From Desulfobacterales bacterium (GTDB lineage: Bacteria; Desulfobacterota; DSM-4660; Desulfatiglandales; Desulfatiglandaceae), in the NCBI GenBank assembly GCA_014382905.1, contig JACNIU010000228.1:1-38108 (forward strand): a stretch of 38,108 nt of DNA, given 5' to 3'. The stretch's first letter is position 1. Every line of letters begins with the position of its first letter. Shown here piece after piece: positions 848 to 20,919 of the stretch. The notes under the pieces were generated by a model. The model saw nothing but the letters and a program-made list of their open reading frames with translations. It did no database searches and had not been told where the DNA came from. The position numbers and the translations under genes are program-made.

Positions 848-1116
848 GTGAGAAAAACCGGGGACTGCTGAATGCCTTAGGTGTCAAAATGTCTACCAAA
901 GCAAAGCTGTTAGTAGAGATGAAACGATTATAAATCTAGCGAAGAATTTCTTAACTTCTATACTACCCGTCTTTCCGATTTCCCTTGTTTGTGTCGCACA
1001 TGTGATGCTCGGATCTGAATTTGGCTCTATATCCGCTTCACATGTTGGGAAGGTTGACAAGATAAATCAATAGAGGAACTACAAACACTAACTTTAATGT
1101 AAGGAGGTATTGTAAG

Positions 1117-2343
1117 ATGAAACAGAAGTCTATCTGGATAATCGTAGTAGTTCTAGTCATAGCTGCTGTCGGAATCTACTATGCGATAAAACCCACTAAG
1201 CCCTTACGCCCTATTAAGGTGGGGATCATTGATTGCTACAGCGGGCCCGCGGCCGTTTATGGCAATGACGCACTCAACGGTTTTAAATTGGCCTTGGTTG
1301 ACATAAACAAAAAAGGGGTTTTAGGGGGAAAAATCGAGTGGACCAAGCGTGATACAAAATTCAAAGTGGATCTTGCCCTTAACATGGCTAAGGAGTTAGT
1401 CATGAGGGAGAAGGTTGATGTCATTGTCGGCACAATCAACAGCGGGGCTGCAATGGCGGTTTCAGAAGCAATTGCCAAGAAAGAGAAGGTGCCATTTATC
1501 ACATGGATCTCCAAAAGCGAAAGGATAACCGGAGAAAAAGGCCATCGTTATGTCTTCTCCTGTGGTGAAAATACGGCCATGGCAGGCAAGGCCGGGGGTG
1601 TTGCCCTTTCCAAGAAGCCGTATGTCAAATACTGGATCGCGGGAGATGACTATGAGTACGGACACGCCATTGCCAATGCCGCATGGCGCAATCTAAAGGC
1701 CATGAAGCCTGACGTGCAAAAAATCGGCGAATCATGGTGGAAGCCGGGCGAACCTGACCTGGTGCCTTATATTACTGCAATTCTTGCAGCAAAACCCGAT
1801 GCGGTCATATTCTGTACCGGAGGCCGTAGCATGACCAATATCATGAAGGCGGTCAAGGCAACCGGCATGGCAGAGAAAGTCCCCATCTGGATCCACACCG
1901 CCACCGACCACGCCGTCCTGAAGCCGCTGGGTGCCGAAGCCCCGGAAGGAGTGATGGGCACCATGGACTACCACTTCTATTACCCTGACACTGCGGCCAA
2001 TAAGGAGTTTGTAAAGAAATTCGAGGCCGCATATGGGCAGGCACCCGGATTCCCCGCTTTTCACGGTTACATAACCGCTTACTTCATTGCGGGGGCATAT
2101 AAAAAGGCAGGCTCTCTTGACAAAGAGAAGTTCATCGATGCCCTGGAGGGGATGAAGATCGAAAGCCCGGTTGGTCAGATTGAGATGAGGGCGTGCGACC
2201 ATCAGGTTGTTCTTCCCATGTATCTGGGGATTACCAAAAAAGAAGTGGGCAAGAATATTGTAATTTCTACCAACATCGTCACCCTGAGCGGCGCTGAGGT
2301 GATGCCGACTTGTGACGAGATCAAGAAGGCCCGCGGCAACTAA
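1117..2343 (+). CDS. livK: ABC transporter substrate-binding protein, LivK type (system 1)
   Basis: Type I periplasmic binding protein (408 aa) of the leucine/amide family. It captures a branched-chain amino acid or related compound and delivers it to the LivHM permease encoded just downstream. Residues 6-24 are one hydrophobic helix followed by a Pro/Lys-rich linker without a clear signal-peptidase site, so it may stay membrane-anchored. The mature part begins IKVGIIDCYSGPAAVYG and contains the family blocks VDVIVGTINSGAA and PDAVIFCTGG. A near-perfect Shine-Dalgarno AAGGAGGT lies 8 nt before the ATG. TTGACA at 1054-1059 may be a -35, but no good -10 follows. It heads a five-gene operon. The real substrate cannot be read from sequence. 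Confidence 0.92.
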   Translation: MKQKSIWIIVVVLVIAAVGIYYAIKPTKPLRPIKVGIIDCYSGPAAVYGNDALNGFKLALVDINKKGVLGGKIEWTKRDTKFKVDLALNMAKELVMREKVDVIVGTINSGAAMAVSEAIAKKEKVPFITWISKSERITGEKGHRYVFSCGENTAMAGKAGGVALSKKPYVKYWIAGDDYEYGHAIANAAWRNLKAMKPDVQKIGESWWKPGEPDLVPYITAILAAKPDAVIFCTGGRSMTNIMKAVKATGMAEKVPIWIHTATDHAVLKPLGAEAPEGVMGTMDYHFYYPDTAANKEFVKKFEAAYGQAPGFPAFHGYITAYFIAGAYKKAGSLDKEKFIDALEGMKIESPVGQIEMRACDHQVVLPMYLGITKKEVGKNIVISTNIVTLSGAEVMPTCDEIKKARGN

Positions 2344-2350
2344 CCAAGGA

Positions 2351-2415
2351 GGCCGTCCGAGAATGGCTATTTTCCTTCCGAGCCGGAGGCCGCAATCTCT
2401 CATTCTCGGACGCCC
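2351..2415 (+). promoter_or_regulatory. Hairpin downstream of livK1, likely processing/attenuation element
   Basis: Arms 2354-2365 and 2401-2412 are a perfect 12-bp inverted repeat (CGTCCGAGAATG) separated by 35 nt that can form a second small GC-rich hairpin. No T run follows, so it looks more like an mRNA-stabilising or attenuating structure than a full terminator. Such structures are frequent between a binding-protein gene and its permease genes. Confidence 0.6.
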
Positions 2416-2436
2416 CCTAAGTATCTGAGGAATAGC

Positions 2437-2481
2437 GAATTGAGGAATTGAATGCACTATCCCTTTTCAATTCCTCAATTC
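2437..2481. repeat. Perfect 16-bp inverted repeat in livK1-livH1 spacer
   Basis: Arms 2437-2452 and 2466-2481 (GAATTGAGGAATTGAA and its complement) are perfect with a 13-nt loop. It lies immediately upstream of the livH1 start. The upstream in-frame ATG at 2448 falls inside the stem, which argues for the later start at 2517. Confidence 0.7.
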
Positions 2482-2516
2482 GTCAATCCCAAAATTCCGT
2501 CGAGGAATCCGATATC

Positions 2517-3413
2517 ATGGAATTTGGGCATATCTTTACCTTTTCCGCATTAGGCAGTCAATTTCTCGTGGGTCTCAGCCGGGCAATGATCCTGTTCATC
2601 GTCTCTTCCGGGATGAGCCTCGTTCTGGGTGTACTCAGGGTCCCGAATGTTGCCCACGGGTCCCTTTACATGATAGGGGCATTCTCGGCCTTTAGCATAT
2701 CTTCCCTGTTTGGCGGTGGCTCTGCCGGTTTCTGGCTGGCATTATTGCTGGCCCCCATTGTGGTGGCCCTTGTGAGCTTTGTTGCGGAGAGATCGCTGTT
2801 CTGCCATCTTTATGAGAGAGAACACCTCATGCTCCTCCTATTTACCTTCGCCTTGATGCTCATCTTAGGCGATCTCGTAAAGATGTTCTGGGGCGCTGAT
2901 TACAGGTCTATCATGGCGCCTGAAATGCTCCGCGGCTCCGTGCCCATATTTGGGTCGCCGTTTCCCAAGTACAACCTGTTCCTCCTCATCGTAGGTCCTC
3001 TTGTGGCCATTTTGCTGTGGCTCTTCACCAACAAGACCAAGACAGGGAAGATCTCCCGGGCAGCAGCCGTTGACATGGAGATGGTTGGCGCTATAGGGAT
3101 CAATGTGAGCTGGGTTTTTGCCTTTGCATTCGTGTTGGGCTGTCTCCTTGCCGGATTAGGCGGGGCCTTAGTTTCCCCAATGGTAAGCATCACCTTAGGG
3201 ATGGATCATGATATCATAATGGAAGCCTTCCTCATCGTCGCCATTGGGGGCTTGGGTAACATGTGGGGCGCCTTGGTTGGATCACTAATATTTGGTTTGA
3301 CTCAATCCTTTGGCGTACTATTCTGGCCTCAATTCGCTATCGTTTTTCCATACGCCGCAGTGGTGATTGTGTTGACCTGGCGGCCTAAAGGCATTCTTAA
3401 ATCAGTATGGTAA
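2517..3413 (+). CDS. livH: Branched-chain amino acid ABC permease, LivH type (system 1)
   Basis: Integral inner-membrane permease of 298 aa with about eight hydrophobic helices. It shows the LivH pattern near the N-terminus (GMSLVLGVLRVPNVAHGSLY) and the conserved EAA-like block GINVSWVFAFAFVLGCLLAGLGGAL, followed by a C-terminal VAIGGLGNMWGALVGS. Start 2517 is preferred over ATG 2448 because the extra 23 residues are low-complexity, derive from an inverted repeat, and precede a GAGGA Shine-Dalgarno. With LivM it forms the membrane pore fed by LivK and driven by LivG/LivF. It ends 13 nt before livM. Confidence 0.92.
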   Translation: MEFGHIFTFSALGSQFLVGLSRAMILFIVSSGMSLVLGVLRVPNVAHGSLYMIGAFSAFSISSLFGGGSAGFWLALLLAPIVVALVSFVAERSLFCHLYEREHLMLLLFTFALMLILGDLVKMFWGADYRSIMAPEMLRGSVPIFGSPFPKYNLFLLIVGPLVAILLWLFTNKTKTGKISRAAAVDMEMVGAIGINVSWVFAFAFVLGCLLAGLGGALVSPMVSITLGMDHDIIMEAFLIVAIGGLGNMWGALVGSLIFGLTQSFGVLFWPQFAIVFPYAAVVIVLTWRPKGILKSVW

Positions 3414-3426
3414 AAAGGAGTGGATT

Positions 3427-4389
3427 TTGTCAAAGGGATTCTTCAATCTGAGATCACTTGGACCGATTGTCGCCATTCTGATTGTCCTGGTGATCCTCCC
3501 TTCAATCATTCCAAGGTTTTACACCTATATCCTTGCCGTGATTTTTATGACAGCCCTATTGGCCATGAGCCTCAACATGGTCGTGGGCCACGGCGGCCTG
3601 TTTCAATTTCATCATGGGGCTTTTTACGGCGTGGGGGCCTATACCGTTGCCTTGATGCTGACTAAGACCTCCCTCCCAATGTGGGTGGGCTTTGTGGCCG
3701 GACCTTTTGCGGCAGCGTTTGTGGGTCTGCTCATCGGCCTGTTTTGTGTCAGGCTCACCCGGCTATACTTCGGAATGCTGCAGATCTCCTTAGGATCACT
3801 CATCTGGGCGATCGCCTTTCGGTGGTACAGCTTTACAGGCGGCGACGACGGGATACACGGGATTCCTCTCCCTTCACTGATCTCATCTTCCACGGGCGCA
3901 TATTACTTTGGCCTGATCCTTCTGATAATTTCCCTGATCGTCATGTACCTGATTTTCAAGTCCCCCTTTGGCGCCACCCTCCAGGCCATTCGAGACAACC
4001 CTGAGCGTTGTGAAGCGATCGGTATCAATGTCAGGCGGCATCAGCTCATTGCTATCGTGATTGCCACCTTTTTTGCCGGAGTTGCCGGAGTTCTCTTTGT
4101 CGTGGTGGAAGGGTCCGTGTTCCCGGATCTCCTGTTCTGGGTCTTCTCCCTTGAGATATTCATCATGTGTCTGTTAGGCGGATGGTTTACCTTTGCCGGA
4201 CCCATTTTAGGGGCAGCCATCATGATATCTCTCAGGACCTTTGTGGGTATCTATACCGAATACTGGACACTGATCCTCGGGATCATACTAATCCTGCTCA
4301 TCTTCTTTCTGCCTGAGGGAGTATGGGGCTATATATCGGAGAAATGTGGTTTTCAGGCCAAAGAAACGGCTGAGAGGGAACGCGAATAA
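3427..4389 (+). CDS. livM: Branched-chain amino acid ABC permease, LivM type (system 1)
   Basis: Second permease subunit (320 aa), polytopic, partner of LivH. The signature LALSLNMVVGHGGLFQFHHGAFYGVGAY-like region near residues 40-65 and the block FGATLQAIRDNPERCEAIGINVRRHQ are typical of LivM. The start is a TTG at 3427, with AAGGAG at 3415-3420 6 nt upstream. No ATG gives a full-length N-terminus, so the rare start is well supported. The stop codon is directly followed by the ATG of livG, so the genes are probably translationally coupled. Confidence 0.92.
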   Translation: MSKGFFNLRSLGPIVAILIVLVILPSIIPRFYTYILAVIFMTALLAMSLNMVVGHGGLFQFHHGAFYGVGAYTVALMLTKTSLPMWVGFVAGPFAAAFVGLLIGLFCVRLTRLYFGMLQISLGSLIWAIAFRWYSFTGGDDGIHGIPLPSLISSSTGAYYFGLILLIISLIVMYLIFKSPFGATLQAIRDNPERCEAIGINVRRHQLIAIVIATFFAGVAGVLFVVVEGSVFPDLLFWVFSLEIFIMCLLGGWFTFAGPILGAAIMISLRTFVGIYTEYWTLILGIILILLIFFLPEGVWGYISEKCGFQAKETAERERE

Positions 4390-5124
4390 ATGCTGCGGGT
4401 TGAAGGAATACAAAAATCGTTTGAGGATTTCAAGGCTGTCAGCGGGGCTGATCTCACGGTGGAGAAGGGCCAGTTAGTGGCAGTTATCGGACCCAACGGA
4501 GCAGGAAAGACAACGCTTTTTAATCTGATCACCGGGCAGCTTAAACCGGATAGCGGAAAGATAATCTTCAACGATGAGAATATCGGTAAACTGCCTCCCT
4601 ATGAGATCTGCAGAAAAGGGATTGCCCGGTCATTTCAAATCGCAAACATCTTTCCCCGTCTCACGGTCTTCAGAAATGTGCATGTATCGGTTCTTTCCCA
4701 GCAGGGAAAGAGCACCCGGCTTTTCCGGCCTGCTCAAACATTAGCCGTGGAGGAAACCAACAGGATCTTAGAAAACGCGGGCCTTTCAGATAAGGCCGAG
4801 GATACGGCAGGTTCGTTGGCCCATGGAGACCAGAGAACATTAGAGATTGCCATCGCTTTGGGCAACAAACCTCAGTTACTGGTTCTTGACGAACCCACTG
4901 CAGGCATGTCTCCTGAAGAAACCACGGCTACCATGGAACTCATCAAGCGATTGGCCGATTCACAAGGATTAACCATCCTGTTTTGCGAGCACGATATGGA
5001 GGTGGTATTCAATGTTGCCCAGAGCATTATGGTCATGCATCAGGGGGTAACCATTATCCAGGGAGGCCCTGATGCCGTGAGGAATTCCAGTCGGGTTCAG
5101 GAATGCTACTTAGGAGGCGCCTAA
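4390..5124 (+). CDS. livG: ABC transporter ATP-binding protein, LivG type (system 1)
   Basis: Cytoplasmic nucleotide-binding subunit of normal length (244 aa). Walker A GPNGAGKTT is at residues 34-42, the Q-loop block is GIARSFQIANIFPRLTV, the signature is LAHGDQ, Walker B is LLVLDEPTAGM, and the H-loop is FCEHDMEVV. The signature differs from canonical LSGGQ, as is usual in LivG. There is no spacing from livM. It is a useful comparison for the second LivG (25527-26714), which carries a large insertion absent here. Confidence 0.94.
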   Translation: MLRVEGIQKSFEDFKAVSGADLTVEKGQLVAVIGPNGAGKTTLFNLITGQLKPDSGKIIFNDENIGKLPPYEICRKGIARSFQIANIFPRLTVFRNVHVSVLSQQGKSTRLFRPAQTLAVEETNRILENAGLSDKAEDTAGSLAHGDQRTLEIAIALGNKPQLLVLDEPTAGMSPEETTATMELIKRLADSQGLTILFCEHDMEVVFNVAQSIMVMHQGVTIIQGGPDAVRNSSRVQECYLGGA

Positions 5125-5126
5125 CC

Positions 5127-5825
5127 ATGTTGGAAGTCGAGGGGATCCACACCTACTACGGCCTGAGCCACATCCTGTTCGGGGTATCACTCGATGTCTC
5201 CGGGGGTGAGATCGTCTGTCTCTTAGGCAGGAACGGGGCCGGAAAAAGCACCACCATGAGAAGCATCATGGGCCTGACGCCGCCTAAGCGAGGTACCATC
5301 AGGTTTAAAGGGAAGACCATAAAGGGGAAGAAGCCGTATCAGCTTGCCCGGCAGGGTATCGGGTATGTGCCTGATAACCGCAGGGTCTTTGCCGATTTAA
5401 CGGTCGGAGACAACCTCGAGATATCGGCACGTAAAGGCGCGGGCACCGTAACGTGGACCAAGGAGAGCGTCTATGAGTTCTTTTCCGCCCTCGGACACAT
5501 AGATTCCCGTAAGGCCGGCTTTTTGAGCGGTGGGGAGCAGCAGATGCTGACCATTGCCCGGGCCCTTATGACCAACCCCGAATTCCTTCTATTGGATGAG
5601 CCCACAGAGGGCCTTGCTCCCCTGATAGTGGAGGTCTTAGAAAAACAGATAAGCAAATTGCGAGAAAAAGGTTTAACGGTCTTGTTGGCCGAGCAGAACC
5701 AAAAGGTTGCCCTGGGACTCAGTGATCGGGGATACATCATTGATAACGGGGTGATCCGTTACCATGCAAGTATAGACGAGTTGAGGGAGAAAGAAGAGAT
5801 CAGGAAAAAGTACCTGTTGGTCTAA
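5127..5825 (+). CDS. livF: ABC transporter ATP-binding protein, LivF type (system 1)
   Basis: Second nucleotide-binding subunit (232 aa from ATG 5127). Walker A is GRNGAGKST, signature LSGGEQQMLTIARAL, Walker B FLLLDEPTEGLAP, and H-loop region LLAEQNQKVAL, where Gln replaces the switch His, as is normal in LivF. The start was moved from an upstream in-frame codon at 5103 inside livG to 5127, where AGGAGG at 5112-5117 gives proper spacing. Last gene of liv operon 1. Confidence 0.94.
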   Translation: MLEVEGIHTYYGLSHILFGVSLDVSGGEIVCLLGRNGAGKSTTMRSIMGLTPPKRGTIRFKGKTIKGKKPYQLARQGIGYVPDNRRVFADLTVGDNLEISARKGAGTVTWTKESVYEFFSALGHIDSRKAGFLSGGEQQMLTIARALMTNPEFLLLDEPTEGLAPLIVEVLEKQISKLREKGLTVLLAEQNQKVALGLSDRGYIIDNGVIRYHASIDELREKEEIRKKYLLV

Positions 5826-5834
5826 GGCCCGCTA

Positions 5835-6014
5835 ATGGACACACCCTTCATTATCCATAGAGGTCAAAGACAATTCTTTAACATCCCTTCTGCGTGGAAC
5901 CTCCTGACATTTGCCAGCCTTGACGATCAGCCCCAGCCAAAAGATGTCAGCGGCCTGACCCAAAAGGCTTTAAGCGCCGCCCCGGCGTTCCCGGGCCTGA
6001 CATGGACATCGTAA
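5835..6014 (+). pseudogene. 59-codon ORF resembling N-terminus of LarA/DUF2088 protein, truncated
   Basis: ATG 5835 opens a 59-codon frame ending at TAA 6012-6014, too short to be listed by usual ORF cut-offs. The peptide contains an RGQRQFFNIPSAWNLL stretch followed by a KDVSGLTQKAL helix. This resembles, from memory, the first about 50 residues of nickel-dependent lactate racemase-like (DUF2088) proteins, which are normally above 400 aa. If so, about 90 percent of the gene is missing and the break is at the tilS start. The ORF overlaps tilS by 13 nt. Because tilS has no visible ribosome binding site of its own, this ORF may now act as a leader peptide coupling tilS translation to the liv operon transcript. 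The family match is tentative. Confidence 0.45.
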
Positions 6015-7429
6015 AGCATATCATCAAAAAGGTCGAAGACACCATTTCAAAATACCGGATGCTCCAGCGTGGAGATCGCGTAATCGTTGCCGTATCCGGC
6101 GGGGCTGATTCTGTCTGCCTCTTAGCCATACTCCACAGTCTTAAAGAGATTCTGGGGATAGAGCTGGCGGTCGCCCATTTTGACCACGGGCTCAGACCGG
6201 AAGCGGATGAATATGAGACCGGATTTGTCAAGTCTATCGCCCTGTCACTAAACCTCGATTTTGTCACGAAAAAGGGAGGGGGAGCGATACGGCCAGAGAG
6301 TGCCTCATTAGAGGAAAAGGCCAGAGATGCCCGATACAGGTTTCTCAAGGATGTCAAGAAAAGACTTTCCGCACATAAAATTGCCACAGGCCACACCCTC
6401 GATGACCAGGCCGAGACGGTCCTCATGAGGCTGTTGCGGGGAAGCGGTCCATCAGGACTTCAAGGCATACATCCTATCAGGGAAAAATGCATCATAAGAC
6501 CGTTGATCGAGGTGAGGCGGGCCGATATTGAATCTTACCTTTCAAGCCGGCATCTCCGGCATATAACAGATTCCTCCAATTTCGAAGTCAGGCATTTGAG
6601 AAACGACATCCGGCTGAACCTCATTCCTCAGCTTGAAAAATACCAGCCCAGGATCGTTGAGCTCTTGGGCCGCACCGCCCTGATCACGAGGGAGGAAAAC
6701 AGATGGGTGGAAGGGAAGGCTGAAAGATGGATTAAGAAGTGGGCGGAAACCGGTTCAAATAACGATATCGTGCTCCCTTTGTCCCGGTTCAAGGGATTGC
6801 CTGAGCCCCTGAAAAATCATGTTGTCAGGCAGGTGCTGAAAATGACGGCAGGGAGCCTCCGACGGATAAACCTGCTCCATATTGAAGCGATAAAGCGCCT
6901 AACAATGGGAAGAAAGCCACAGGCCCGGGTCATCCTTCCCGACACGCTTCTGGTCAGAAGAGTGTATGAAAAGCTGCTCTTTTCAAAGGGAAAAACGGAA
7001 GCAGCCGAGAGATTCTGCTACTTTTTTGAGAGGCACGGGGCCTTTCATCTGGAGACTTTAGGCTGCACCGTTCGCTTTGATGAGATTGAAAGAAACGCCC
7101 TGTCAGATCTGAAGACTGTACCCTGGACCGCCTGTCTGGACGCAGACCGGACAACCTTTCCCCTGATGCTGCGAAACTTCCGGCCTGGTGACAGGTTTGT
7201 CCCCATGGGCATGACAGGCCACAAGAAACTCAAAGATTTTTTTGTTGACATGAAGATCCCATCGGATATCAGGGCGCGTGTCCCCATATTGACCCAGGGG
7301 GATCAACCGATTTGGGTCTGCGGCCTGAGGATTGATGACCGATTTAAGGTCACTTCAAGCACCCAGAAGATCTTGAGGATCACCTTTGATGCCCACGGCA
7401 GCACCCTGGGTGACTACCAAACCAAATAG
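6002..7429 (+). CDS. tilS: tRNA(Ile)-lysidine synthetase
   Basis: TilS (475 aa) adds lysine to C34 of tRNA-Ile(CAU) so that it reads AUA and not AUG; it is essential in most bacteria. The PP-loop SGGADS is at residues 32-37, followed by HFDHGLRPEADEYE, the GHTLDDQAETVLMRLLRG block, and the TilS C-terminal domain (RNFRPGDRFVPMGMTGHKKLKDFF). Length is normal for deltaproteobacterial members. No Shine-Dalgarno is visible before ATG 6002, and translation may be coupled to the overlapping short ORF. It ends at TAG 7427-7429, and the same frame continues directly into PhaE-like sequence. The genes around it are fragments, so the locus seems rearranged around an essential gene. Confidence 0.95.
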   Translation: MDIVKHIIKKVEDTISKYRMLQRGDRVIVAVSGGADSVCLLAILHSLKEILGIELAVAHFDHGLRPEADEYETGFVKSIALSLNLDFVTKKGGGAIRPESASLEEKARDARYRFLKDVKKRLSAHKIATGHTLDDQAETVLMRLLRGSGPSGLQGIHPIREKCIIRPLIEVRRADIESYLSSRHLRHITDSSNFEVRHLRNDIRLNLIPQLEKYQPRIVELLGRTALITREENRWVEGKAERWIKKWAETGSNNDIVLPLSRFKGLPEPLKNHVVRQVLKMTAGSLRRINLLHIEAIKRLTMGRKPQARVILPDTLLVRRVYEKLLFSKGKTEAAERFCYFFERHGAFHLETLGCTVRFDEIERNALSDLKTVPWTACLDADRTTFPLMLRNFRPGDRFVPMGMTGHKKLKDFFVDMKIPSDIRARVPILTQGDQPIWVCGLRIDDRFKVTSSTQKILRITFDAHGSTLGDYQTK

Positions 7430-7489
7430 ACAAATCAGGATGCGTTCAAGGCCTGGACGGAAATTTATGAAGAGGAATTCAGGAAGTTT

Positions 7490-8038
7490 TTGAATGTGCC
7501 GCAATTGGGGTTAACCCGCGCCTATCAGGAAAGAATGGGTCGTTTTACTGACAGATTCAACCTGTTTCAGGGTGCGATGGCCCAGTTTATGTACCTGCTC
7601 TACCTGCCAATGGAAAAATCTTTCAAAGTGATGCAAGAAAAGCTGGAGGCGTTAACCGGGGAGGAAGGCCTTCCTGAGGATTCACAAGCCTACTATCGGA
7701 TGTGGGTAAAGATCCTTGAAGGCCATTACATGACCCTGTTCAAGTCGTCCGAATACATCCAGGTCTTAGGCAAAACCCTTGACGCAATGGAGGATTTTAT
7801 GGTGGCTAAGCACGAGATGCTTCAGGACTTCGTGCAAATGCTTCCAGTGCCCACACAGAAAGATATGGATGGTCTTTACAAAGAGCTTTACCTGTTGAAA
7901 AAAAGGATCAAGCAACTTGAAAAAAATCGGGGGGCAGCAGGCAGTAAGGGGTTAGGCAGCACATTGGGAGGAGATGTTTCATTAATTGGCAACCAAAATG
8001 GTGTGAGTTCTTTATCAGGTCAAAACCCAAGGAACTAA
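7490..8038 (+). CDS. PhaE-like protein (class III PHA synthase subunit), N-terminally truncated
   Basis: The 182 residues match the C-terminal half of PhaE, the non-catalytic partner of PhaC in class III polyhydroxyalkanoate synthases (PhaE is usually about 350 aa). Visible blocks include LGLTRAYQERMGRFTDRF, the central helices, and the end VPTQKDMDGLYKELYLLKKRIKQLEK, followed by a low-complexity tail. PhaE-like sequence continues upstream in the same frame to 7430 (KAWTEIYEEEFRKFLN), right after the tilS stop, with no ATG. The only starts are a TTG at 7490 and a GTG at 7496 inside the conserved region. No phaC is present. It is most likely a gene remnant, or a protein made only from a weak start. 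The family call is good and function doubtful. Confidence 0.7.
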   Translation: MNVPQLGLTRAYQERMGRFTDRFNLFQGAMAQFMYLLYLPMEKSFKVMQEKLEALTGEEGLPEDSQAYYRMWVKILEGHYMTLFKSSEYIQVLGKTLDAMEDFMVAKHEMLQDFVQMLPVPTQKDMDGLYKELYLLKKRIKQLEKNRGAAGSKGLGSTLGGDVSLIGNQNGVSSLSGQNPRN

Positions 8039-8388
8039 AGCGGGTTGCAGTCTCACTGAGATCTGCACTCGTTTGAATTGGGATTTTCATCCCCTCAATA
8101 ACGTTAAGCGCATGGGGAAACAGGGTCATAAAAGAAGCTGGCATGGACTATTCTCCTTTCCAGAAAAACTGAGTTTGCCTTTTGTTCTCACCCTACCACA
8201 TGCCTTGTTCAATTCCAAGCAATATGTTGTAGATTTAAAGACCATTGTCTACTATATTTGGGGTAATTCGCTCATCCTTACCACCTCTCAACAGAAAGCA
8301 GTCTGCAATAGAGACCATGAAAAAGACTTGACCAAAAACCTGTAATGATCTTAAAATCTAAGATCCTCACCACAAAAGGAGACAGACA
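8039..8388. other. Non-coding stretch between phaE-like fragment and next gene
   Basis: 350 nt without a supportable gene. A 90-codon plus-strand frame (8073-8345) lacks a ribosome binding site and recognisable motifs. On the minus strand, codons around 8144-8045 read like a conserved peptide (HALNVIEGMKIPIQTSADL) but run antisense into the phaE-like gene; it could be a fragment of another gene, which I could not identify. AAAGGAG at 8375-8381 is the ribosome binding site of the next gene. Confidence 0.4.
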
Positions 8389-8727
8389 ATGATCCGGGCA
8401 AAACTATGGTTTCGATGTGCCGCCATGCATGATCCGGTAACGCCGGTCATTGTTAAACCGGCCGTGATCGGATGGGATGCCAAGAAAAGGGAAGTGGATC
8501 TTACGATTGAACGTGCCTTTAAGGGCGAGGAGTTGGTCCTGAGGATGAAAGGCTGGGTAACCGTTGATGTAAAGAAGGCCATCGAGGTCATAAAGAAATA
8601 CGGTTTTATCAAGGTCTTAGACGAACGGGACCTCGCGGTAGAGATGGAAACAGAAAAAGACTTTGAAGCATTAAACGGGGAGCTCTCAGAAAGTTTCGGC
8701 GACCAGTTGGACCTTGAAAGGATATGA
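8389..8727 (+). CDS. Conserved hypothetical protein upstream of Smr
   Basis: A 112-aa soluble protein that I do not recognise. It has an alternating beta/alpha look, with DLTIERAFKGEELVLRMKGWVTV followed by a KKAIEVIKKYGF helix and an acidic C-terminal third. There is no signal peptide or membrane segment. AAAGGAG lies 7 nt before the ATG. Its stop overlaps the start of the Smr gene by 4 nt (ATGA), so the two are co-translated and probably functionally linked. Confidence 0.75.
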   Translation: MIRAKLWFRCAAMHDPVTPVIVKPAVIGWDAKKREVDLTIERAFKGEELVLRMKGWVTVDVKKAIEVIKKYGFIKVLDERDLAVEMETEKDFEALNGELSESFGDQLDLERI

Positions 8728-9011
8728 CAGGAACCGATTCCGAACCGGTTGAGGTCCCCATTGACGGGATCTTAGACCTGCACACATTCGCCCCGGAAGA
8801 CGTGTCTTCGGTGGTGGAAGAATACCTGTGGGCATGTCTCAAGGAGGGGATCCATGAAGTCAGGATTATTCATGGAAAGGGGAGGGGTGTCCTCCGCCGG
8901 ATCGTACATGCCCGGCTTGAAAGACACCCCAACGTCATAGACTTCGGGCTCGACTCCGGGCCTTCGGGCTGGGGGGCTACCGTGGTCCGCCTCAAAGCAG
9001 GCTCAGCGTGA
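8724..9011 (+). CDS. Smr domain protein
   Basis: A 95-aa stand-alone Smr (small MutS-related) domain. The landmarks are the DLHTF segment near residue 18 and HGKGRGVLRRIVHARLERHPNV at about residues 49-71, with the usual Gly-rich end GPSGWGATVVRL. Smr domains nick or cleave DNA or RNA, and recent work links them to rescue of stalled ribosomes; which applies here is unknown. It is a short, MutS-less form, fully overlapping-coupled with the 112-aa gene upstream. Its 3' end overlaps the convergent gene on the minus strand by 9 nt. Confidence 0.88.
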   Translation: MTGTDSEPVEVPIDGILDLHTFAPEDVSSVVEEYLWACLKEGIHEVRIIHGKGRGVLRRIVHARLERHPNVIDFGLDSGPSGWGATVVRLKAGSA

Positions 9012-10217
9012 ACCGGCAGTGAATTCCCGAACGGCTGAAAACATCCGTTCCCTGTCCACCGGAGCTACCTTTCTGACAATCCACTCCCGGAATTCTTGCC
9101 CGGCAGGGAGCGACTGTTTGTAGCTCATCAGGTCTAATTTGACGCCAAGGGCCTCAGCAACTTTTGTGGCCATGATGGGCCATATCTCGCCGATATCCCC
9201 TACCACAGGGACGCTGCCCGGGATCCTGGCAAACCCCGACATCTCCATGCGAAAAGGGATGCGCATCGACTTTGTCTTTGGAAGACCCTTGTGAACCGCG
9301 TCGGACACCATTCCGGACTCCCTCTCCTTGTTCCAGGCCTTCTCCAGGTTGGGATCGAGGTCTATTCTCACGATCTTCTTCTCTCTGAGTGAATAGGTCC
9401 AACCCCCTTCCCAGTCGGACCATATGCCGTGACCCGTAAAAAGCTCAAAGGGCCCGTCATGAATCTCCTGGGAAAGGGCAAGGGCTGACTCGATAATCAC
9501 ATCCGCGCTGTTAAGGAGTTCCGCAACCCGCTGGCACCGTTCGGATACAGGGATGGAATCACCGACTGCCAGACCCACCTCTCCACCCCCTATCATCTGT
9601 GGGACGGTAACGAGCACAGGGACGTTTTTAAGTGCCCCTGCCCCTATCATGGTGTAAGGGTCAGCACCGTAACCGGCAACCTGTTCAAAGGGGAGGCCGC
9701 ATCGTTTGGAAAGGGCAAGAATATCACGTGCCAGTCTTTCCGTGCGAAGGCCGGTGGGATAGGCCATATTCCCTGCAACCTTGATAATAATATTTCCCTT
9801 GGCCCGCTTCATCCTGTGGTAAAGTCCCGTGTCTATATAGATTTCTTTTTGATACGCCTCTAAACGGGCCTTTGAGATCATGCTGACCTCAAACTGTCCG
9901 TCGCAGGGGAGCTTCCCGGTTTCAAACCCAAAGACCTCTCCATCAAATCGTTTTACTTTTTCCAAGGTGCCTGCCATCTCATGATTGATGACCGCAGAGC
10001 TGGTGGAAACCCCATCAATGAGACCCTTGTGTATAAGTTCCGCAATAAGGGTCGTAACGCCCTCGTGGATATTCGGGCCGCTTCCCACCACGGCAACCAC
10101 CTTGCCGCCTCTTTCTTTGGCCTCAACGATCACTTTTACGGCCAGGTTCAACCTGGACCTGGTTCTTGCCGTAAGGCCTTTGTACATTGCTTCGATTGCT
10201 TTTTGATCAATTGGCAT
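9003..10217 (-). CDS. Conserved hypothetical protein, possible deoxyhypusine-synthase-like fold
   Basis: A 404-aa cytoplasmic protein of unknown function. The first half reads as a nucleotide-binding alpha/beta domain: KVVAVVGSGPNIHEGVTTLIAELIHKGLIDGV, then a STSSAVINHEMAGTLEKVKRFDGE block. Its order (pocket, Ile-Asp-Gly-Val strand, conserved His-Glu) recalls deoxyhypusine-synthase-like or ornithine-cyclodeaminase-associated folds. Later blocks include AGYGADPYTMIGAGALKNVPVLVTVPQMIGGGEVG and a Trp-rich TGHGIWSDWEGGW. The ATG is preceded by AGAAAGGGG. It follows the HD-GYP gene at 17 nt on the same strand, so they may be co-transcribed. The fold assignment is only a guess from motif spacing. 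Confidence 0.7.
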   Translation of the reverse strand: MPIDQKAIEAMYKGLTARTRSRLNLAVKVIVEAKERGGKVVAVVGSGPNIHEGVTTLIAELIHKGLIDGVSTSSAVINHEMAGTLEKVKRFDGEVFGFETGKLPCDGQFEVSMISKARLEAYQKEIYIDTGLYHRMKRAKGNIIIKVAGNMAYPTGLRTERLARDILALSKRCGLPFEQVAGYGADPYTMIGAGALKNVPVLVTVPQMIGGGEVGLAVGDSIPVSERCQRVAELLNSADVIIESALALSQEIHDGPFELFTGHGIWSDWEGGWTYSLREKKIVRIDLDPNLEKAWNKERESGMVSDAVHKGLPKTKSMRIPFRMEMSGFARIPGSVPVVGDIGEIWPIMATKVAEALGVKLDLMSYKQSLPAGQEFREWIVRKVAPVDRERMFSAVREFTAGSR

Positions 10218-10234
10218 TGGAAATAGCCCCTTTC

Positions 10235-11104
10235 TCAGAACATCCCTTTTTCTTTGATATCCTCAATAAAGGCCTCAACGAGTTCAGGGGATAGATTTTT
10301 CCCGCCAATTTTTCTCAGTATGGCGAATGCCTCTTCCATGGTTCTCCCCTTCTGGTAAGATCTGTCTGTAGTGATGGCGTCGAAACAATCCGCCACACTG
10401 ATCATCCTGGCCCCCACCGGGATTTCCTCCCCCTTAAGACCACCGGGATATCCTGTTCCGTCAAGGCTTTCATGGTGATAGTGAACGTAGTCAAGGACAG
10501 GCCCCAGAAAAGTAAGGTCTTTGAGAATATCAACTCCGATCTTGGGATGGTTGCGAATCTCCTCAAAGATCCCCTCACTGATACTGACGTCTTCATCGCT
10601 GAAAACCCGGTCACTGAACCCGATTTTCCCGATGTCATGGAGCACGCTTCCGATCCGGATCTTTTCCACCTCTTCGTCGGATAATCCCACTTTTCGTGCG
10701 AGCCTTTCCGAGTAAACAGATACCCGGTAGGCATGGCCCTTGGTATATTTATCCCTCGCCCCAAGTGCATTGGCAATGGTGATTACGGTCTGGGTGATAT
10801 TCTTCTGCAGCAACGCGTTCAGATCCCGGAGTTCATCGATCAATTGCTCCAACCGGACTTCCCTTGCCTCAACCCTGACCATCATCATGCCCATGGCCTC
10901 GGCAATCCTCTGGATCATTTCAGAATGCCCGGGCTTGGTAAACTCCATGACCTCATTGGAATAGTTCCCCTTGGCCACCGCTTCGATAATGTCAATGAGA
11001 TTACGGATCTCTTCTTCGGAGGCTTCATGCACGGCTGGCGTACTCCCGGAGCGACTGATCAATGGATTTCCCTCTCCCTGAACCTTGAACCCGTGAACGC
11101 TCAC
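10235..11104 (-). CDS. HD-GYP domain protein, probable cyclic-di-GMP phosphodiesterase
   Basis: A 289-aa soluble protein with a helical N-terminal linker (about residues 30-110, HAMP/coiled-coil like, no membrane segment) and a full HD-GYP domain. Seen are GHAYRVSVYSERLA (His124), VLHDIGK (H156/D157), NHPKIG (His186), YHHESLDGTGYPGG (H210/H211, GYP 218-220) and SVADCFDA (Asp239). All metal ligands are present, so it should hydrolyse c-di-GMP or a related dinucleotide. The start is GTG 11104; no Shine-Dalgarno is seen, and a strong promoter lies only 14 nt upstream, so the mRNA may be nearly leaderless. The C-terminus is 17 nt before the next gene. Confidence 0.9.
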   Translation of the reverse strand: MSVHGFKVQGEGNPLISRSGSTPAVHEASEEEIRNLIDIIEAVAKGNYSNEVMEFTKPGHSEMIQRIAEAMGMMMVRVEAREVRLEQLIDELRDLNALLQKNITQTVITIANALGARDKYTKGHAYRVSVYSERLARKVGLSDEEVEKIRIGSVLHDIGKIGFSDRVFSDEDVSISEGIFEEIRNHPKIGVDILKDLTFLGPVLDYVHYHHESLDGTGYPGGLKGEEIPVGARMISVADCFDAITTDRSYQKGRTMEEAFAILRKIGGKNLSPELVEAFIEDIKEKGMF

Positions 11105-11118
11105 TTTGGGCTGGTGTC

Positions 11119-11147
11119 AGTATATGCCAAACGCAAACGCGTGTCAA
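11119..11147 (-). promoter_or_regulatory. Near-consensus sigma-70 promoter of the HD-GYP gene
   Basis: Reading the minus strand: TTGACA (11147-11142), 17 nt, TATACT (11124-11119). The GTG start is at 11104, so the predicted transcript has a leader of about 8 nt. Confidence 0.7.
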
Positions 11148-11293
11148 AAAAACAAATGGCCCCTTCGGGCGTCGAGACGAAATAATTATTTGGAATTTAT
11201 CTTGAATTGCCTTATGATTGAAACGATGCAGTAAATGCAGCGGCCATTGGCTTCCCAATGGATCCCGGCTCCGGTGTTCTTTACATTAACATC

Positions 11294-11314
11294 AAGGAAC
11301 TCTCCCAGTTCCTT
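11294..11314 (+). promoter_or_regulatory. Hairpin in argF leader region
   Basis: A perfect 8-bp stem, AAGGAACT (11294-11301) and AGTTCCTT (11307-11314) with a CTCCC loop, followed by T-rich sequence with two copies of a TTTAGGCA-like word. It could be a weak terminator for upstream transcription or a regulatory structure for argF. I see no clear ArgR box. Confidence 0.35.
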
Positions 11315-11374
11315 TAACTTTAGGCATTTTAGCTCGATTTAGGCACTTTAGTTCACTTAATTGGGAGGTATGAA

Positions 11375-12295
11375 ATGACACGGTCATTCCTGACAGCAAA
11401 CGATTTGTCCTCAGAGGACCTTTTTGCAATCTTCGAGAGGGCCCGGATTCTGAAAGACGCCATCAAAAGACGAAAAACCCTCGACGTCCTCCGGAACAGG
11501 GTAATCGGCATCCTTTTCGAGAAGCCATCCACCAGGACACGAACAAGCTTTGAGTCGGCCATCCTGCGGCTTGGCGGCGCTGCAATCTACCTTGCGCCGG
11601 GCGATCTCCAGATCAAACGTGGAGAACCGATCGAGGACACAGGAAGGATGCTCGGAAGCTATCTCGATGCCGTTGTTGCAAGGGTCTATGCGCATCAGAC
11701 CGTGGAAGATCTTTCCCGCAATTCCGGCATCCCGGTGATTAATGGCCTGAGCGATCTGGAGCATCCTACCCAGGCCGTCTGCGATCTGTTTACCATACTT
11801 GAGGTCAAAGGTAAGGTTCAAGGGTTGACGCTTACATACATTGGCGACGGAAACAACGTATGCCATTCGTTATTAGCGATCTGCGCCTTAGCCGGCATGA
11901 ATATGAATGTTGCTTCCCCGAAAGGGTACGCTCCCCGTCAGGATATCTTGATGAAGGCGAATGAAATTGCAAAAAAAACGGGGGCCAGGTTGAACATTCT
12001 CGACCGCCCGAGAGAAGCAACTGCCGGGGCCGACATCCTTTATACCGATGTCTGGATCAGCATGGGAGAGGAAAAGGAAGAAGAAACAAAACTAACCGCT
12101 TTTCAAGGGTATCAAATAAACTCCGAGCTTCTGGAGATAGCGGCAGAAGATGCGGTAGTGATGCACTGCCTTCCGGCCCACAGAGGCCTCGAGATAACAA
12201 ACGATGTTATTGAGGGGCCCCAGTCTATCGTCTGGCAGCAGGCGGAAAACAAGATGCACGGGGCCGCCGGGATATTAGACTACTTTCTTTCATAA
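11375..12295 (+). CDS. argF: Ornithine carbamoyltransferase
   Basis: A 306-aa enzyme that joins carbamoyl phosphate and ornithine to make citrulline in arginine biosynthesis. The carbamoyl phosphate motif STRTR is at residues 52-56, HPTQ at 130-133, DVWISMG at about 225-231 and the ornithine loop HCLPAHRG at 264-271. All catalytic residues are present and the length is typical. GGGAGG lies about 9 nt before the ATG. It is single: no other arg gene is next to it. The downstream gene is convergent. Confidence 0.96.
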   Translation: MTRSFLTANDLSSEDLFAIFERARILKDAIKRRKTLDVLRNRVIGILFEKPSTRTRTSFESAILRLGGAAIYLAPGDLQIKRGEPIEDTGRMLGSYLDAVVARVYAHQTVEDLSRNSGIPVINGLSDLEHPTQAVCDLFTILEVKGKVQGLTLTYIGDGNNVCHSLLAICALAGMNMNVASPKGYAPRQDILMKANEIAKKTGARLNILDRPREATAGADILYTDVWISMGEEKEEETKLTAFQGYQINSELLEIAAEDAVVMHCLPAHRGLEITNDVIEGPQSIVWQQAENKMHGAAGILDYFLS

Positions 12296-12309
12296 GGCCG
12301 GCGTTATCC

Positions 12310-13287
12310 TCATTCAGGGGCTGCAAAAACCGCTGATCCGTAGCCGACAACCCACCGGCCCCGGCTTTCGGGGAAATCATCGCCGCTGTTGCGATAGTGT
12401 AAGACTGTTCCTTTCTTACATCCTTTAAGCTCCGCAAACCGCATAACCGCAAGGACCGGTCCTATCCCACAGAATGTCTGCCTCGAATAGCTCCAGTCTT
12501 TCTCAATCCCAGCGTGATCCATAACCCTCATCATCTCTAACGTATCCCTGTCTGTTTTTGTGACCCGCTCATAATTCGGATCATGCAACATATCACTGCT
12601 GGCGATGACCACGATTCTTTTCTTTCTGGAAAGGGTGTCCAGCACGGCCATAAGCTCGTTCAGCGTCTGGGGATCATGGTCCCCGATCAGTCCGACGATC
12701 AAACTAGTCCCCGGCAACGCTCTCTGCACAAAGGGAATCTCGTTTTCAGCCGAATGCTCACCCGCGTGGGGCCTGTAATCAAAGTATATCCGCGGGCTTT
12801 TTGCGGCCAAGAGCGCTGCGCCCTCTTTGTCAAGCACCGCCTCACCGAGTGGCGTCCCAATGGCATCTCCGTCCATGAGCGCTACGCCCGGGAATCCGCT
12901 GCGGTGACTGACCCCAAACACTACGACTGTTTCGGGCCGGCCCCAGGTTTCGGCGTTGTCTCTTATTGCACGAAATGCATATCCGGCCACCTTCCCGGAA
13001 TAGGCGTATCCCGCATGCGGCGCAATGGCACCCACGATCCTGCCATTCACTTTGTCTACCCGGGCCGTCTCAATGTATCCGTCGACCATTGTTTTCAACT
13101 CTTTCCCGCTTCCCGGGAACCATCTTCCGGCCCCGAAGGCCTTCCTGACCACCCGTTCAGTTCCCTTACTCATCTTTCCCTCCTCTCCCGCCCAGGAAAA
13201 CATGACAAAACAGGGCGCATATACACACGCCGTCAGCAACACCAGAAGAACGCATACACCTTTTCGTCTCGCAAGAATCAGATCCAT
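12310..13287 (-). CDS. MEMO family protein (AmmeMemoRadiSam system B-like) with export signal
   Basis: A 325-aa protein of the MEMO/AMMECR1-B family, metal-binding relatives of extradiol dioxygenases of uncertain biochemical role. Key blocks: RWFPGSGKELKTMVDGY, IAPHAGYAYSG, FGVSHRSGF, HAGEHSAENEIPF, ASSDMLHDP and FCGIGPV. These carry the conserved His/Asp/Cys residues expected for the metal site. Unusually, about 30 extra N-terminal residues form a signal: a basic start, a hydrophobic core, and L-T-A-C at 18-21 that fits a lipobox. So it may be an envelope lipoprotein, not cytosolic. GAGGAGG precedes the ATG. No partner AMMECR1 or radical SAM gene is in the window. Confidence 0.9.
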   Translation of the reverse strand: MDLILARRKGVCVLLVLLTACVYAPCFVMFSWAGEEGKMSKGTERVVRKAFGAGRWFPGSGKELKTMVDGYIETARVDKVNGRIVGAIAPHAGYAYSGKVAGYAFRAIRDNAETWGRPETVVVFGVSHRSGFPGVALMDGDAIGTPLGEAVLDKEGAALLAAKSPRIYFDYRPHAGEHSAENEIPFVQRALPGTSLIVGLIGDHDPQTLNELMAVLDTLSRKKRIVVIASSDMLHDPNYERVTKTDRDTLEMMRVMDHAGIEKDWSYSRQTFCGIGPVLAVMRFAELKGCKKGTVLHYRNSGDDFPESRGRWVVGYGSAVFAAPE

Positions 13288-13319
13288 ACGGCCTCCTCAG
13301 TTTTAGTGTTGCAGGTTGT

Positions 13320-13408
13320 GGGTTTGTTGGGTTACTTGGGTTTGTTGAGTTTATTGGGTTCAGGGTTCAGGGTTTTCAATCATCAATCGACAATCAACAA
13401 TCAACAAT
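13320..13408. repeat. Degenerate intergenic repeats (GGGTTTGTT / AATCAAC)
   Basis: Between the MEMO gene and the dnaE stop are tandem-like words: gggtttgttg, gggttcagggttcaggg and caatcaacaatcaacaat. The last 18-mer (13391-13408) recurs, inverted and identical, at 30022-30039. These look like dispersed low-complexity intergenic repeats and not a coding or regulatory element. Confidence 0.6.
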
Positions 13409-16400
13409 CTAATACAGTTCACATGCCTTACGCCCCAACAAGCCCTCAATCTCCGCGAGGAGTTCCTTGCAGGGGAGAACATTGAAACGACCCTGTGCAG
13501 AGATCGTCACGTCTTTCCCCCCGGGCACACTTACCTTGAAAATGAGTCTGCACTCTCCTGGATATTTGAACAAAATATCCCGCAGGTCTTCCAAAATTTC
13601 TCGTGAGAGGCCCCCATTTTCCAGTTTGAACACGACGGCCCTTACAGTGTTCAGTTTGAGAGCGCTTAACGTCTCAATTTCCTTTGCAAGTATCTTGGCT
13701 GAACTGTCCCCGATTTCCACTCCTCCTGTTATCAGCAGGGGCTCGTCGCCTTTCAGGAGCGGCGACACGGCTGTGAAAAGATCCGGGAATATAACCACTT
13801 CGGTGGAGCCGGTCAGGTCTTCAAGATGAATGACGGCCATCTTGTCACCTCTTTTGGTTCGCTTTATCTTCAGGCTTTCTACAACGCCGGCGACCTTGAC
13901 CAGGCTCTTATCCTTCTGTCCTGGAAGATCGTGTACCAGGCAGCTCGTAAACCGGTCGATCTCATCGTGAAAGCTATCTAAGGGGTGGCCTGTAATATAG
14001 AAGCCTAAGGCCTCTTTTTCCCTCCTTAACCTCTCTCCTTCATCCCATTCCGCGATATCAGGAAGTTCGAGGAGCCCACCGGAACTTCCGCTGTGAAAGG
14101 TCAAAGGTCCGAACATATTCAGTTGATTCGGGTCGTGGTTAGCGCCGCAGATCCTCAGGGCATCATCAAGGCCCGCAAAGAGCCTGGATCGGTAACTCCC
14201 TGTAAAATCAAATGCCCCGCACTGGATTAAACCTTCGAGGACTCTGCGGTTGACCTTGGATCCGTCTACCCGCCTGCAAAAATCGAGGAGATCGCCGAAA
14301 GGCCCGTGGCTATCCCTCTCCTCGTTGACCAGTTCTACCGCCTTCAGGCCAACATTCTTGACTGCCGCAAGCCCAAAACGGATTTTTCCATCCACCACGG
14401 AAAAGTCTGCCTGGCTTTCATTCACATCCGGGGGCAGGATTTCAATCCCCATTACCCGGCACTCCGCGATGTTCTTGATCGTCTTGTCCTGGTTCCCCAT
14501 ATCCAGAGTCAGAAGAGCGGCCATGAACTCCACCGGATAATGGGCCTTGAGATAGGCTGTCTGATACGCGATCATGGCATAGGCCGCGGAATGAGATTTG
14601 TTAAAACCGTAACCCCCGAACTTGTCTATCAGCCCGAAAAGCTTGTCCGCCATCTTGGCCTCAACACCGTTTGCCGTGGCCCCTTCAATAAACCTTGCCC
14701 TGTGTCTTGCCATAACTTCTGGTTTCTTTTTTCCCACGGCCTTTCTGAGTTCATCCGCCTCCCCCATCGTGTACTTTGCCAGGACCTGGGCGATCTTCAT
14801 GACCTGTTCCTGGTACAATATAACGCCGTAGGTCTCTTTAAGGATCGGTTCTAACTGAGGAATAAAATAATGAATCTTTCCTTTGCCGTGCTTCCCGTTG
14901 ACAAAATCATCGATCATGTTGCTCCCCAGAGGTCCCGGCCTGTAAAGGGCCATCAGGGCGATCATATCTTCAAAGATCTCCGGCTTGAGCCGTCTCAGAA
15001 GGTCTTTCATGCCGGAGCTTTCCAATTGGAATACGCCGGTGGTTTTTCCGTCAGAGCAAAGTTGGTAGGTGGCTGGATCATTGAAAGAAATTTTGCTCAG
15101 GTCTACCCTCTTGTGAGAGGTCTTTTCAATCAGACGAAGGGCTTCCTTGATCACCGTCAAGGTTTTCAGCCCCAAAAAATCAAATTTGATCAGGCCTAAC
15201 TGCTCAATCCTTTCCATGGTGAACTGGGCCATGACTTCCCCCTTGGACCCAGCATAAAGGGGGAGATATTCCACAAGTGGCCTGTCCGCAATAACCACGC
15301 CACATGCGTGGGTCGACGCATGTCTGGCTAAGCCCTCAACAGCACGGGATATCTTGAGAAGCTTTTTGAGCGGGCCTTCCCTCTCTTCCAATTCCCTCAG
15401 CTCCGGCTCTTCTCGAATAGCCTGATCCAGTGTGACGCCGGGCCCTTCCGGCACTAATTTGGCGATACGGTCCACCTCTCCCAATGGGATGTTGAGGCTG
15501 CGGCCCACATCCCGTATGGCCCCCCTTGCCTTCATGGTGCCGAACGTAATGATCTGACTTACATTGTCCCGCCCATATTTTTCCGCTACATACCGTATGA
15601 CCTGATCCCTGCCGTTGATGCAGAAGTCGATATCGATATCCGGCATGCTTATTCGTGCCGGATTCAGAAATCTCTCAAAAAGGAGCCCGTATCTTATCGG
15701 GTCAATGTTGGTGATGTTCAGGCAATAGGCCACCAGAGAGCCGGCTGCCGAACCACGGCCGGGCCCCACAGAAATATCGTTGCGGTATGCGTATTCGATG
15801 AAATCGGCCACAATCAGAAAGTAGCCTGCAAAATCCATATCGAGAACCACAGAAAGCTCAAATTCGAGCCTTTCCTGGTACTCGGATTGGACCGTTTCGG
15901 AAAGTGGTCCTTCTTTCTCTTCTTTCTCTGCCAATCGCACCGCAAGGCCCCTTTTGGCCTTGTCGGTCAATATTTCATTGAGGCTTCTCTTGTCCTCCGT
16001 ATGAAATACCGGGAATTTATATTTACCGAAATCCATTTCATACTCACAGCGACTTGCCACCTCCATGGTATTGTCCAAGGCCTCCTCATACCCTCTCAGG
16101 GCCTCCTCCATTTCCTGCCGGGACTTGAAATAGAACTCGTCAGATGAAAACTTGAGCCGCTTCTCATCGTCAATTGACTTCCCCGTCTGGATGCAGAGGA
16201 GGATATCGTGGGCCTCAGCGTCCTCTTTGTTTAAGTAATGGCAATCGTTTGTGCCCACCAAGGGTATGGAAAGATCGCGAGAGATTTCTTTGAGCACGCG
16301 GTTCACCTTTTCTTGTTCAGACAAATGATTGGCCTGGACCTCTAAATAAAACCGCCCATTGTCAAAGATAGACGCCATCTCTCGTGCCTTTTGCTTGGCT

Positions 16401-16873
16401 GACTCAACTTGTCCAGCGCCCACGAGATAGGGAACAGACCCTTTCAGGCAACCGGAAAAAGCGATAAGGCCGGCGTTATATTCCCTGAGGAGATCCATGT
16501 CTACGCGGGGATGGTAATAGAACCCTTCTAAATGACCCAAAGTAACCAGCTTGCTCAAATTCGCATATCCCTGTGCGTTCATGACCAGGAGGGTAAGATG
16601 ATAGGCGTTGGGTCTTCCGCCCGGTGATGGTGAACGATCCCGCCGGTCGCCAGGGGCCACATAGACCTCACACCCGATGATCGGTTTGATCCCTGCCTTT
16701 ACGGCCTGATCATAGAACTGCACAACACCGAACATGTTGCCGTGATCGGTAATGGCGACGCTATCCATCCCTAAGCCGCGCGCCTTGTCTAAGAGCCGGT
16801 CAATCCGGATAGCCCCGTCCAGGAGGCTGTATTCGGTATGCACATGAAGATGAACAAATGACGAGTCGGTCAC
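13409..16873 (-). CDS. dnaE: DNA polymerase III alpha subunit
   Basis: Replicative polymerase catalytic subunit of the DnaE1 type, about 1154 aa from GTG 16873. It has an N-terminal PHP domain (HLHVHTEYSLLDGAI, ITDHGNMFG), the palm catalytic Asp motif PDIDIDF at about residues 411-417, the GRGSAAGSLVAY block, the fingers, a helix-hairpin-helix region, and a C-terminal OB fold (VAGVVESLKIKRTKRGDKMAVIHLED). The frame opens 23 codons earlier at a TTG (16942), but that extension has no homology character, and the GTG is preceded by an AGGA-like site. A MITE-like repeat sits about 100 nt upstream. Monocistronic. Confidence 0.96.
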   Translation of the reverse strand: MTDSSFVHLHVHTEYSLLDGAIRIDRLLDKARGLGMDSVAITDHGNMFGVVQFYDQAVKAGIKPIIGCEVYVAPGDRRDRSPSPGGRPNAYHLTLLVMNAQGYANLSKLVTLGHLEGFYYHPRVDMDLLREYNAGLIAFSGCLKGSVPYLVGAGQVESAKQKAREMASIFDNGRFYLEVQANHLSEQEKVNRVLKEISRDLSIPLVGTNDCHYLNKEDAEAHDILLCIQTGKSIDDEKRLKFSSDEFYFKSRQEMEEALRGYEEALDNTMEVASRCEYEMDFGKYKFPVFHTEDKRSLNEILTDKAKRGLAVRLAEKEEKEGPLSETVQSEYQERLEFELSVVLDMDFAGYFLIVADFIEYAYRNDISVGPGRGSAAGSLVAYCLNITNIDPIRYGLLFERFLNPARISMPDIDIDFCINGRDQVIRYVAEKYGRDNVSQIITFGTMKARGAIRDVGRSLNIPLGEVDRIAKLVPEGPGVTLDQAIREEPELRELEEREGPLKKLLKISRAVEGLARHASTHACGVVIADRPLVEYLPLYAGSKGEVMAQFTMERIEQLGLIKFDFLGLKTLTVIKEALRLIEKTSHKRVDLSKISFNDPATYQLCSDGKTTGVFQLESSGMKDLLRRLKPEIFEDMIALMALYRPGPLGSNMIDDFVNGKHGKGKIHYFIPQLEPILKETYGVILYQEQVMKIAQVLAKYTMGEADELRKAVGKKKPEVMARHRARFIEGATANGVEAKMADKLFGLIDKFGGYGFNKSHSAAYAMIAYQTAYLKAHYPVEFMAALLTLDMGNQDKTIKNIAECRVMGIEILPPDVNESQADFSVVDGKIRFGLAAVKNVGLKAVELVNEERDSHGPFGDLLDFCRRVDGSKVNRRVLEGLIQCGAFDFTGSYRSRLFAGLDDALRICGANHDPNQLNMFGPLTFHSGSSGGLLELPDIAEWDEGERLRREKEALGFYITGHPLDSFHDEIDRFTSCLVHDLPGQKDKSLVKVAGVVESLKIKRTKRGDKMAVIHLEDLTGSTEVVIFPDLFTAVSPLLKGDEPLLITGGVEIGDSSAKILAKEIETLSALKLNTVRAVVFKLENGGLSREILEDLRDILFKYPGECRLIFKVSVPGGKDVTISAQGRFNVLPCKELLAEIEGLLGRKACELY

Positions 16874-16970
16874 TTTATCCTGATCTTTCTGTAAACGATG
16901 ATTGTAAGATACTAACTGAATATGATACGGTATATACGCCAAATCATCAAGGCCCTAATTTTGGCAGGAG

Positions 16971-17126: not shown

Positions 17127-17148
17127 GGAAGGAGTTAGGAAAAAACAG

Positions 17149-20081: not shown

Positions 20082-20097
20082 AACAGATGATGGATAC

Positions 20098-20895: not shown

Positions 20896-20919
20896 TATCT
20901 GGCACAGGAAAGCAATGTG

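Follow-up and report, generated by a model that had tools for sequence, protein, structure and literature searches.

The DNA at 7430-8144 is, with a probability of about 90%, what remains of a class III PHA cluster formerly located between tilS and the gene at 8389; judged from sequence, no functional PhaE would remain here and the process would be one of ordinary gene decay. Positions refer to the window, the whole stretch of 38,108 nucleotides that was analysed (Desulfobacterales bacterium, contig JACNIU010000228.1). A relative keeps tilS, phaE, phaC, a GAF protein gene and a MaoC-like gene on one contig, and a PhaR-like and a PhaZ-like gene before the orthologue of the 8389 gene on another. 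The window keeps the 3' part of phaE and the 5' end of the PhaZ-like gene, both nearly identical to those of the relative, and the intervening genes are missing. Since a related bacterium still has the gene intact and almost identical in sequence, ordinary decay is the favored reading, most likely with no readthrough protein, and the phaE frame at 7430 is most likely a pseudogene remnant. Both deletion joins are known from draft assemblies.

The PhaE-like frame behind tilS

The tilS gene occupies 6002-7429 on the plus strand, is intact and encodes 475 amino acids; its last ~240 bp, from ~7187, lie within a tract of high identity shared with the relative. Behind its stop codon, TAG 7427-7429, the same frame stays open from 7430 to a stop ending at 8038 (plus strand, 202 codons). 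Residues 8-163 of this frame align to positions 153-310 of the 311 in PF09712 (E = 1.8e-23; 83.7 bits, cut-off 25.7), and a profile search of the whole genome matched positions 148-310 from base 7430, the sole PF09712 match found there. The stretch 7430-7918 represents the C-terminal half of a PhaE-like PHA-synthase subunit. The first-pass annotation had held that PhaE residues start right after the TAG in the frame of tilS and that no ATG precedes them, and both statements stand: the earliest ATG, GTG or TTG in the frame is TTG 7490. As the homology begins 13 to 20 codons upstream of that codon, profile coverage is not confined to the ORF that opens there, and the profile match from position 148 or 153 shows the N-terminus to be lost.

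The remnant passes the curated cut-off of PF09712 and fails that of TIGR01834, at 77.2 bits against 154.95; the intact PhaE of the relative is likewise under the latter (73.6 bits). Alignment with three intact PhaE proteins shows that the frame at 7430 lacks the N-terminal part and start codon of a complete PhaE. PhaE likeness had initially been assigned to all of 7430-8038, and this holds up to near 7926, where the homology ends, but not for 7927-8038: the open frame finishes with ~37 residues that do not belong to PhaE, because 7927-7959 is filler and ~7960-8038 is antisense to a PhaZ-like remnant. The phaE remnant proper, a C-terminal part that has lost ~126 of 292 codons at its front, is therefore placed at 7430-7926 on the plus strand. 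Solved structures gave three weak matches, all unrelated transporters (best E 0.081), and none of the literature titles screened names the locus or a tilS-linked phaE.

An intact copy and a probable first deletion

A scan of genome contigs with the 202-residue frame matched three loci. The contig L005 comes from a Thermodesulfobacteriota MAG in the same family as the window's genome (G041 in one genome set and G057 in another, with contig numbers and places in agreement). Its gene order is tilS, phaE, phaC, GAF protein and MaoC-like protein (PF01575), beyond which two proteins are encoded on the other strand, one of 168 residues without a Pfam match and one of 521 residues whose only PhaC match is below cut-off (24.1 bits). 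Located between tilS and phaC, the phaE of L005 is intact, with 292 codons and its own ATG at 5623. The adjoining PhaC (364 residues) scores 429.7 bits with TIGR01836, above the cut-off of 365.3, and passes PF07167 narrowly, at 23.9 against 23.7 bits.

Window positions 7434-7926 align to L005 6002-6494 over 493 bp at 97.6% identity and without a gap. Only 12 differences separate the two, 6 silent and 6 changing, distributed as 6, 1 and 5 over the three codon positions, and the open frame has been kept. The 9-mer ATCAGGATT occurs in L005 at 5530, near the end of tilS, and at 6002, within phaE, and nowhere else on that contig. In the window, ATCAGGAT occurs once, at 7434, and is followed by G, so that the ninth base differs from ATCAGGATT. 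The window is without the 472 bp that in L005 span one 9-bp direct repeat to the next; the join, at 7434-7441 on the plus strand, marks the removal of the tilS-phaE intergenic stretch and the 5' end of phaE, with ~126 N-terminal codons. A 472-bp gap between short direct repeats is the pattern that deletion between such repeats would leave, and either slippage or recombination involving the two 9-bp copies may have produced it. Of the two interpretations first offered for the frame, that of a headless remnant behind tilS in a genome from which PhaC is gone is borne out by the relative, whose copy has the N-terminus, an ATG and an adjoining phaC; that of a readthrough or TTG-started product is not.

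A PhaE family that natively lacks the N-terminus was considered and found unsupported, since the three aligned intact proteins, from L005, L006 and L086, have 292, 295 and 299 residues (the L086 row of the alignment stops 8 residues short of its end). A distant, shorter PhaE of 232 residues, 26% identical, is encoded at L003 in genome G011, with an ATG and an adjoining phaC.

TilS and the candidate products

TilS would be normal. Its C-terminal domain is complete, with TilS_C reaching residue 457 of 475, and the protein has 475 residues in G062, 493 in G057 and 492 in G020. The frame shared by tilS and phaE follows from the position of the deletion join together with a 1-base difference from L005, just ahead of the tilS end, that gives the window its TAG. 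There is next to no chance that readthrough of UAG 7427 yields a TilS-PhaE fusion: while the shared frame is open past that single TAG, it is explained by one deletion and one base, and TilS is also 475 residues long in G062, where the sequence behind tilS is unrelated to the window's. Decoding of UAG as pyrrolysine would call for a PylS over cut-off in the genome, and the search returned two matches, of 25.8 and 21 bits against 178.15; among 14 control genomes the same search matched in 13, over cut-off in 1. Readthrough, with or without pyrrolysine, was rejected on these three grounds.

Translation of a short protein behind tilS from TTG 7490 or GTG 7496, functional as a phasin-like protein or as the partner of another protein, is very unlikely. 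From TTG 7490 the frame is open for 182 codons, and AGGAAG at 7481-7486 lies nine bases before GTG 7496. However, 7443-7515, which contains all three elements, is identical to the L005 coding part of intact phaE; being unchanged internal codons of that gene, they have not been shaped as a start. Moreover, no PhaC was found in the genome and the last ~37 residues of such a product would be filler and PhaZ-like antisense. The suggestion that readthrough or a TTG start makes a product thus gains no support from TilS length, candidate starts or PylS. There is only a very slim chance that a truncated PhaE, started at GTG 7496 or TTG 7490, is active in the absence of a class III PhaC, perhaps as a phasin-like protein that binds membranes or granules.

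Search for PhaC

The window's own genome is a draft in 500 contigs, 97.87% complete and with 7.74% contamination. PF07167 found no PhaC in it (Caulobacter was matched among the controls), nor did the PhaC of the relative as a query, for which the only control is an indirect one, its tblastn match to a stretch of G074 at 81%. TIGR01836 gave a single match, at 23.4 bits against the cut-off of 365.3; this was rejected as PhaC, Pfam calling the protein an alpha/beta hydrolase (Hydrolase_4, 77.4 bits). These searches agree with the initial remark that PhaC is absent. Because the draft is 97.87% complete, the absence of PhaC from the genome as a whole is likely, not certain. The PhaC subunit of a class III PHA synthase was accordingly not found in the draft, and the organism probably makes no PHA with such a synthase.

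The PhaZ-like remnant and a probable second deletion

Another contig of the same MAG, L007, carries a PhaR-like gene (PF07879) and, on the minus strand, the gene of a depolymerase-like protein of 470 residues (PF06850); the orthologue of the 8389 gene comes next. The depolymerase-like, or PhaZ-like, protein lies at L007:677-2089 and passes PF06850 (79.2 against 27), while it is below the cut-off of TIGR01849 (96.6 against 300.75). As a query it has one match in the window's genome, 62 of its 470 residues at 97% identity, at 8144-7959. A remnant of 62 N-terminal PhaZ-like codons is therefore placed at 7959-8144 on the minus strand. This component of the same decayed cluster is absent from the first-pass annotation.

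Between the two remnants, at 7927-7959, lies a filler of ~33 bp. Searches for its 20-base core, allowing up to 3 mismatches in the window and up to 2 in the window's genome, each recovered a single occurrence, the filler itself, and a dispersed repeat was rejected on this ground as the cause of the second deletion. Since only 62 PhaZ-like residues are kept, with the filler in between, the second deletion would have taken the 3' end of phaE, phaC and all but the 5' end of the PhaZ-like gene, leaving the filler behind. We infer that L005 and L007, from the relative's contigs JAUPKI010000399 and JAUPKI010000068, are adjacent; if they are neighbors, the deletion may have removed ~7.7 kb or more, namely the 5,789 bp with which L005 continues from 6495 until its contig stops and 1,906 bp of L007. 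Positions 8145-8388, which separate the PhaZ-like remnant from the 8389 gene, are 90-95% identical to L007 and 36-52% identical to G020 and G062.

The site in related genomes

In G062 (L083) and G020 (L051), tilS is followed by a cyclase-family gene on the other strand (PF04199; 314 and 312 residues, respectively) and then by the 8389 gene. The cyclase-family gene, at L083:442-1386 and L051:7287-8225, stands where the window has PHA debris, and neither genome gave a match to the PHA proteins at this site. The 8389 gene itself (8389-8727, plus strand, 112 residues) has no Pfam or NCBIfam match, and the tract of high identity ends near its start. Its protein is present in 18 of 41 genomes, the window's own included, and in the window the gene after it, at 8724-9011, encodes a Smr-domain protein (PF01713). 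The family as a whole does not keep tilS and the 8389 gene together: the two were found on one stretch in 2 of the 19 examined (L051 and L083). At L085, the search recovered tilS and the Smr gene and not the 8389 gene; L054, L055, L056, L059, L060, L062 and L088 extend past the 8389 gene by 5 to 10.5 kb with no tilS, and the rest of the 19 are short, limited by contig ends or taken for another gene.

DNA matches to the phaE part were found in three of 85 genomes of the order (G000, G057 and G074, the window's own included); in that search 52 of the 85 had a match to one part or another of the query, and scoring was limited to four candidates per genome, which could hide weak ones. As a protein query the remnant matches 2 of 41 genomes, again including its own (G000 and G011). 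In G074 (L086), phaE, phaC, the GAF and MaoC-like genes and relatives of the 168- and 521-residue proteins have the order and orientations of L005. In the two other intact clusters, no tilS was found in the 0.7 kb upstream of phaE (L006) or the 6.5 kb upstream (L086), and the tilS-phaE linkage is therefore known only from L005.

Probable exchange between genera

The tract shared with L005 and L007, probably the rest of an exchanged PHA cluster, runs over ~7187-8420 and is 88-100% identical in 60-bp steps, with diverged flanks; its 3' border can be placed only between 8389 and 8420. Within tilS, the window and L005 agree at 65.2% of the 1181 sites compared in 6002-7185 and at 95.4% of the 218 sites compared in 7187-7404. 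On the other side, steps from 8502 on are 70-80% identical. Elsewhere, matches of at least 500 bases between window positions 1000-20900 and the genome of L005 are 64-81% identical, and two more of at least 500 bases that include part of the tract reach 72 and 84%. Two short stretches between predicted genes of the window, ~13308-13375 and ~11314-11362, have 13 and 6 counterparts, respectively, in the genome of the relative, at 83-94% identity over 36-61 bases; this hints at dispersed repeats in the intergenic DNA of both genomes.

The genome of L005 is congeneric with G020, and its tilS (L005:4099-5580) is a mosaic in which the 5' part is nearest to that congener and the 3' end nearest to the window. 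In the 5' segment it is 80.2% identical to G020, its nearest, and 63.5% to G062; in the 3' segment the window is nearest (95.4%), followed by G062 (80.7%) and G001 (78.9%), with G020 at 73.4%. The 5' segment of the window's own tilS is nearest to G062 and G001 (74.8 and 74.2%). A tree of the 218 sites of the 3' segment groups the window with L005 at a support of 0.78, and the branches that set off G020 and G056 have 0.98. Past the tract, at 8421-8484, L007 and G020 are 97-100% identical and the window and L007 84-88% (32 sites a step). These comparisons suggest that the window's lineage, or one closely related to it, was the source of the tract in the genome of L005, a direction that rests on 218 sites and allows for a third donor. 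The relative would probably have acquired the cluster by homologous exchange through the 3' end of tilS and the start of the 8389 gene.

The same pattern might arise if a piece of an L005-like genome had been stitched into the window's contig during assembly or binning, given the contamination of the bin and a tract far nearer to L005 than its flanks are. Such an artefact is very unlikely: the tract is not identical to L005 and L007, it contains deletion joins at two different places and its portion of tilS belongs to a single unbroken gene. Furthermore, it is in the L005 genome that the 3' end of tilS disagrees with the congener, which suggests an exchange on that side.

With ordinary decay as the preferred reading, the locus makes a clean case of it, as the intact cluster, the repeats at the deletion ends, the two half-genes and the gene of relatives at the site have all been located. 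A further suggestion is that exchange by way of flanking genes carried a storage-polymer cluster from one genus to another within a family, and that the cluster was later lost on the apparent donor side. For annotation, 7490-8038 should be called a pseudogene.

Comparison with known PHA systems

Measured against the PhaE of class III PHA synthases (PF09712, TIGR01834), the window copy has the C-terminal half, over the PF09712 cut-off, but is without the N-terminal part, an ATG or a phaC partner that could be found, and is below the TIGR01834 cut-off. With the intracellular PHA depolymerase of L007 (PF06850; TIGR01849) the window shares the 62 N-terminal residues at 97% identity, the remainder having been deleted. 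For the phaE piece, identity is 97.6% with the cluster of L005 (G041/G057) and 74% with that of L086 (G074). Both of these clusters consist of phaE, phaC, the GAF and MaoC-like genes and then the 168- and 521-residue proteins on the other strand, whereas the window has kept only the ends of phaE and of the PhaZ-like gene.
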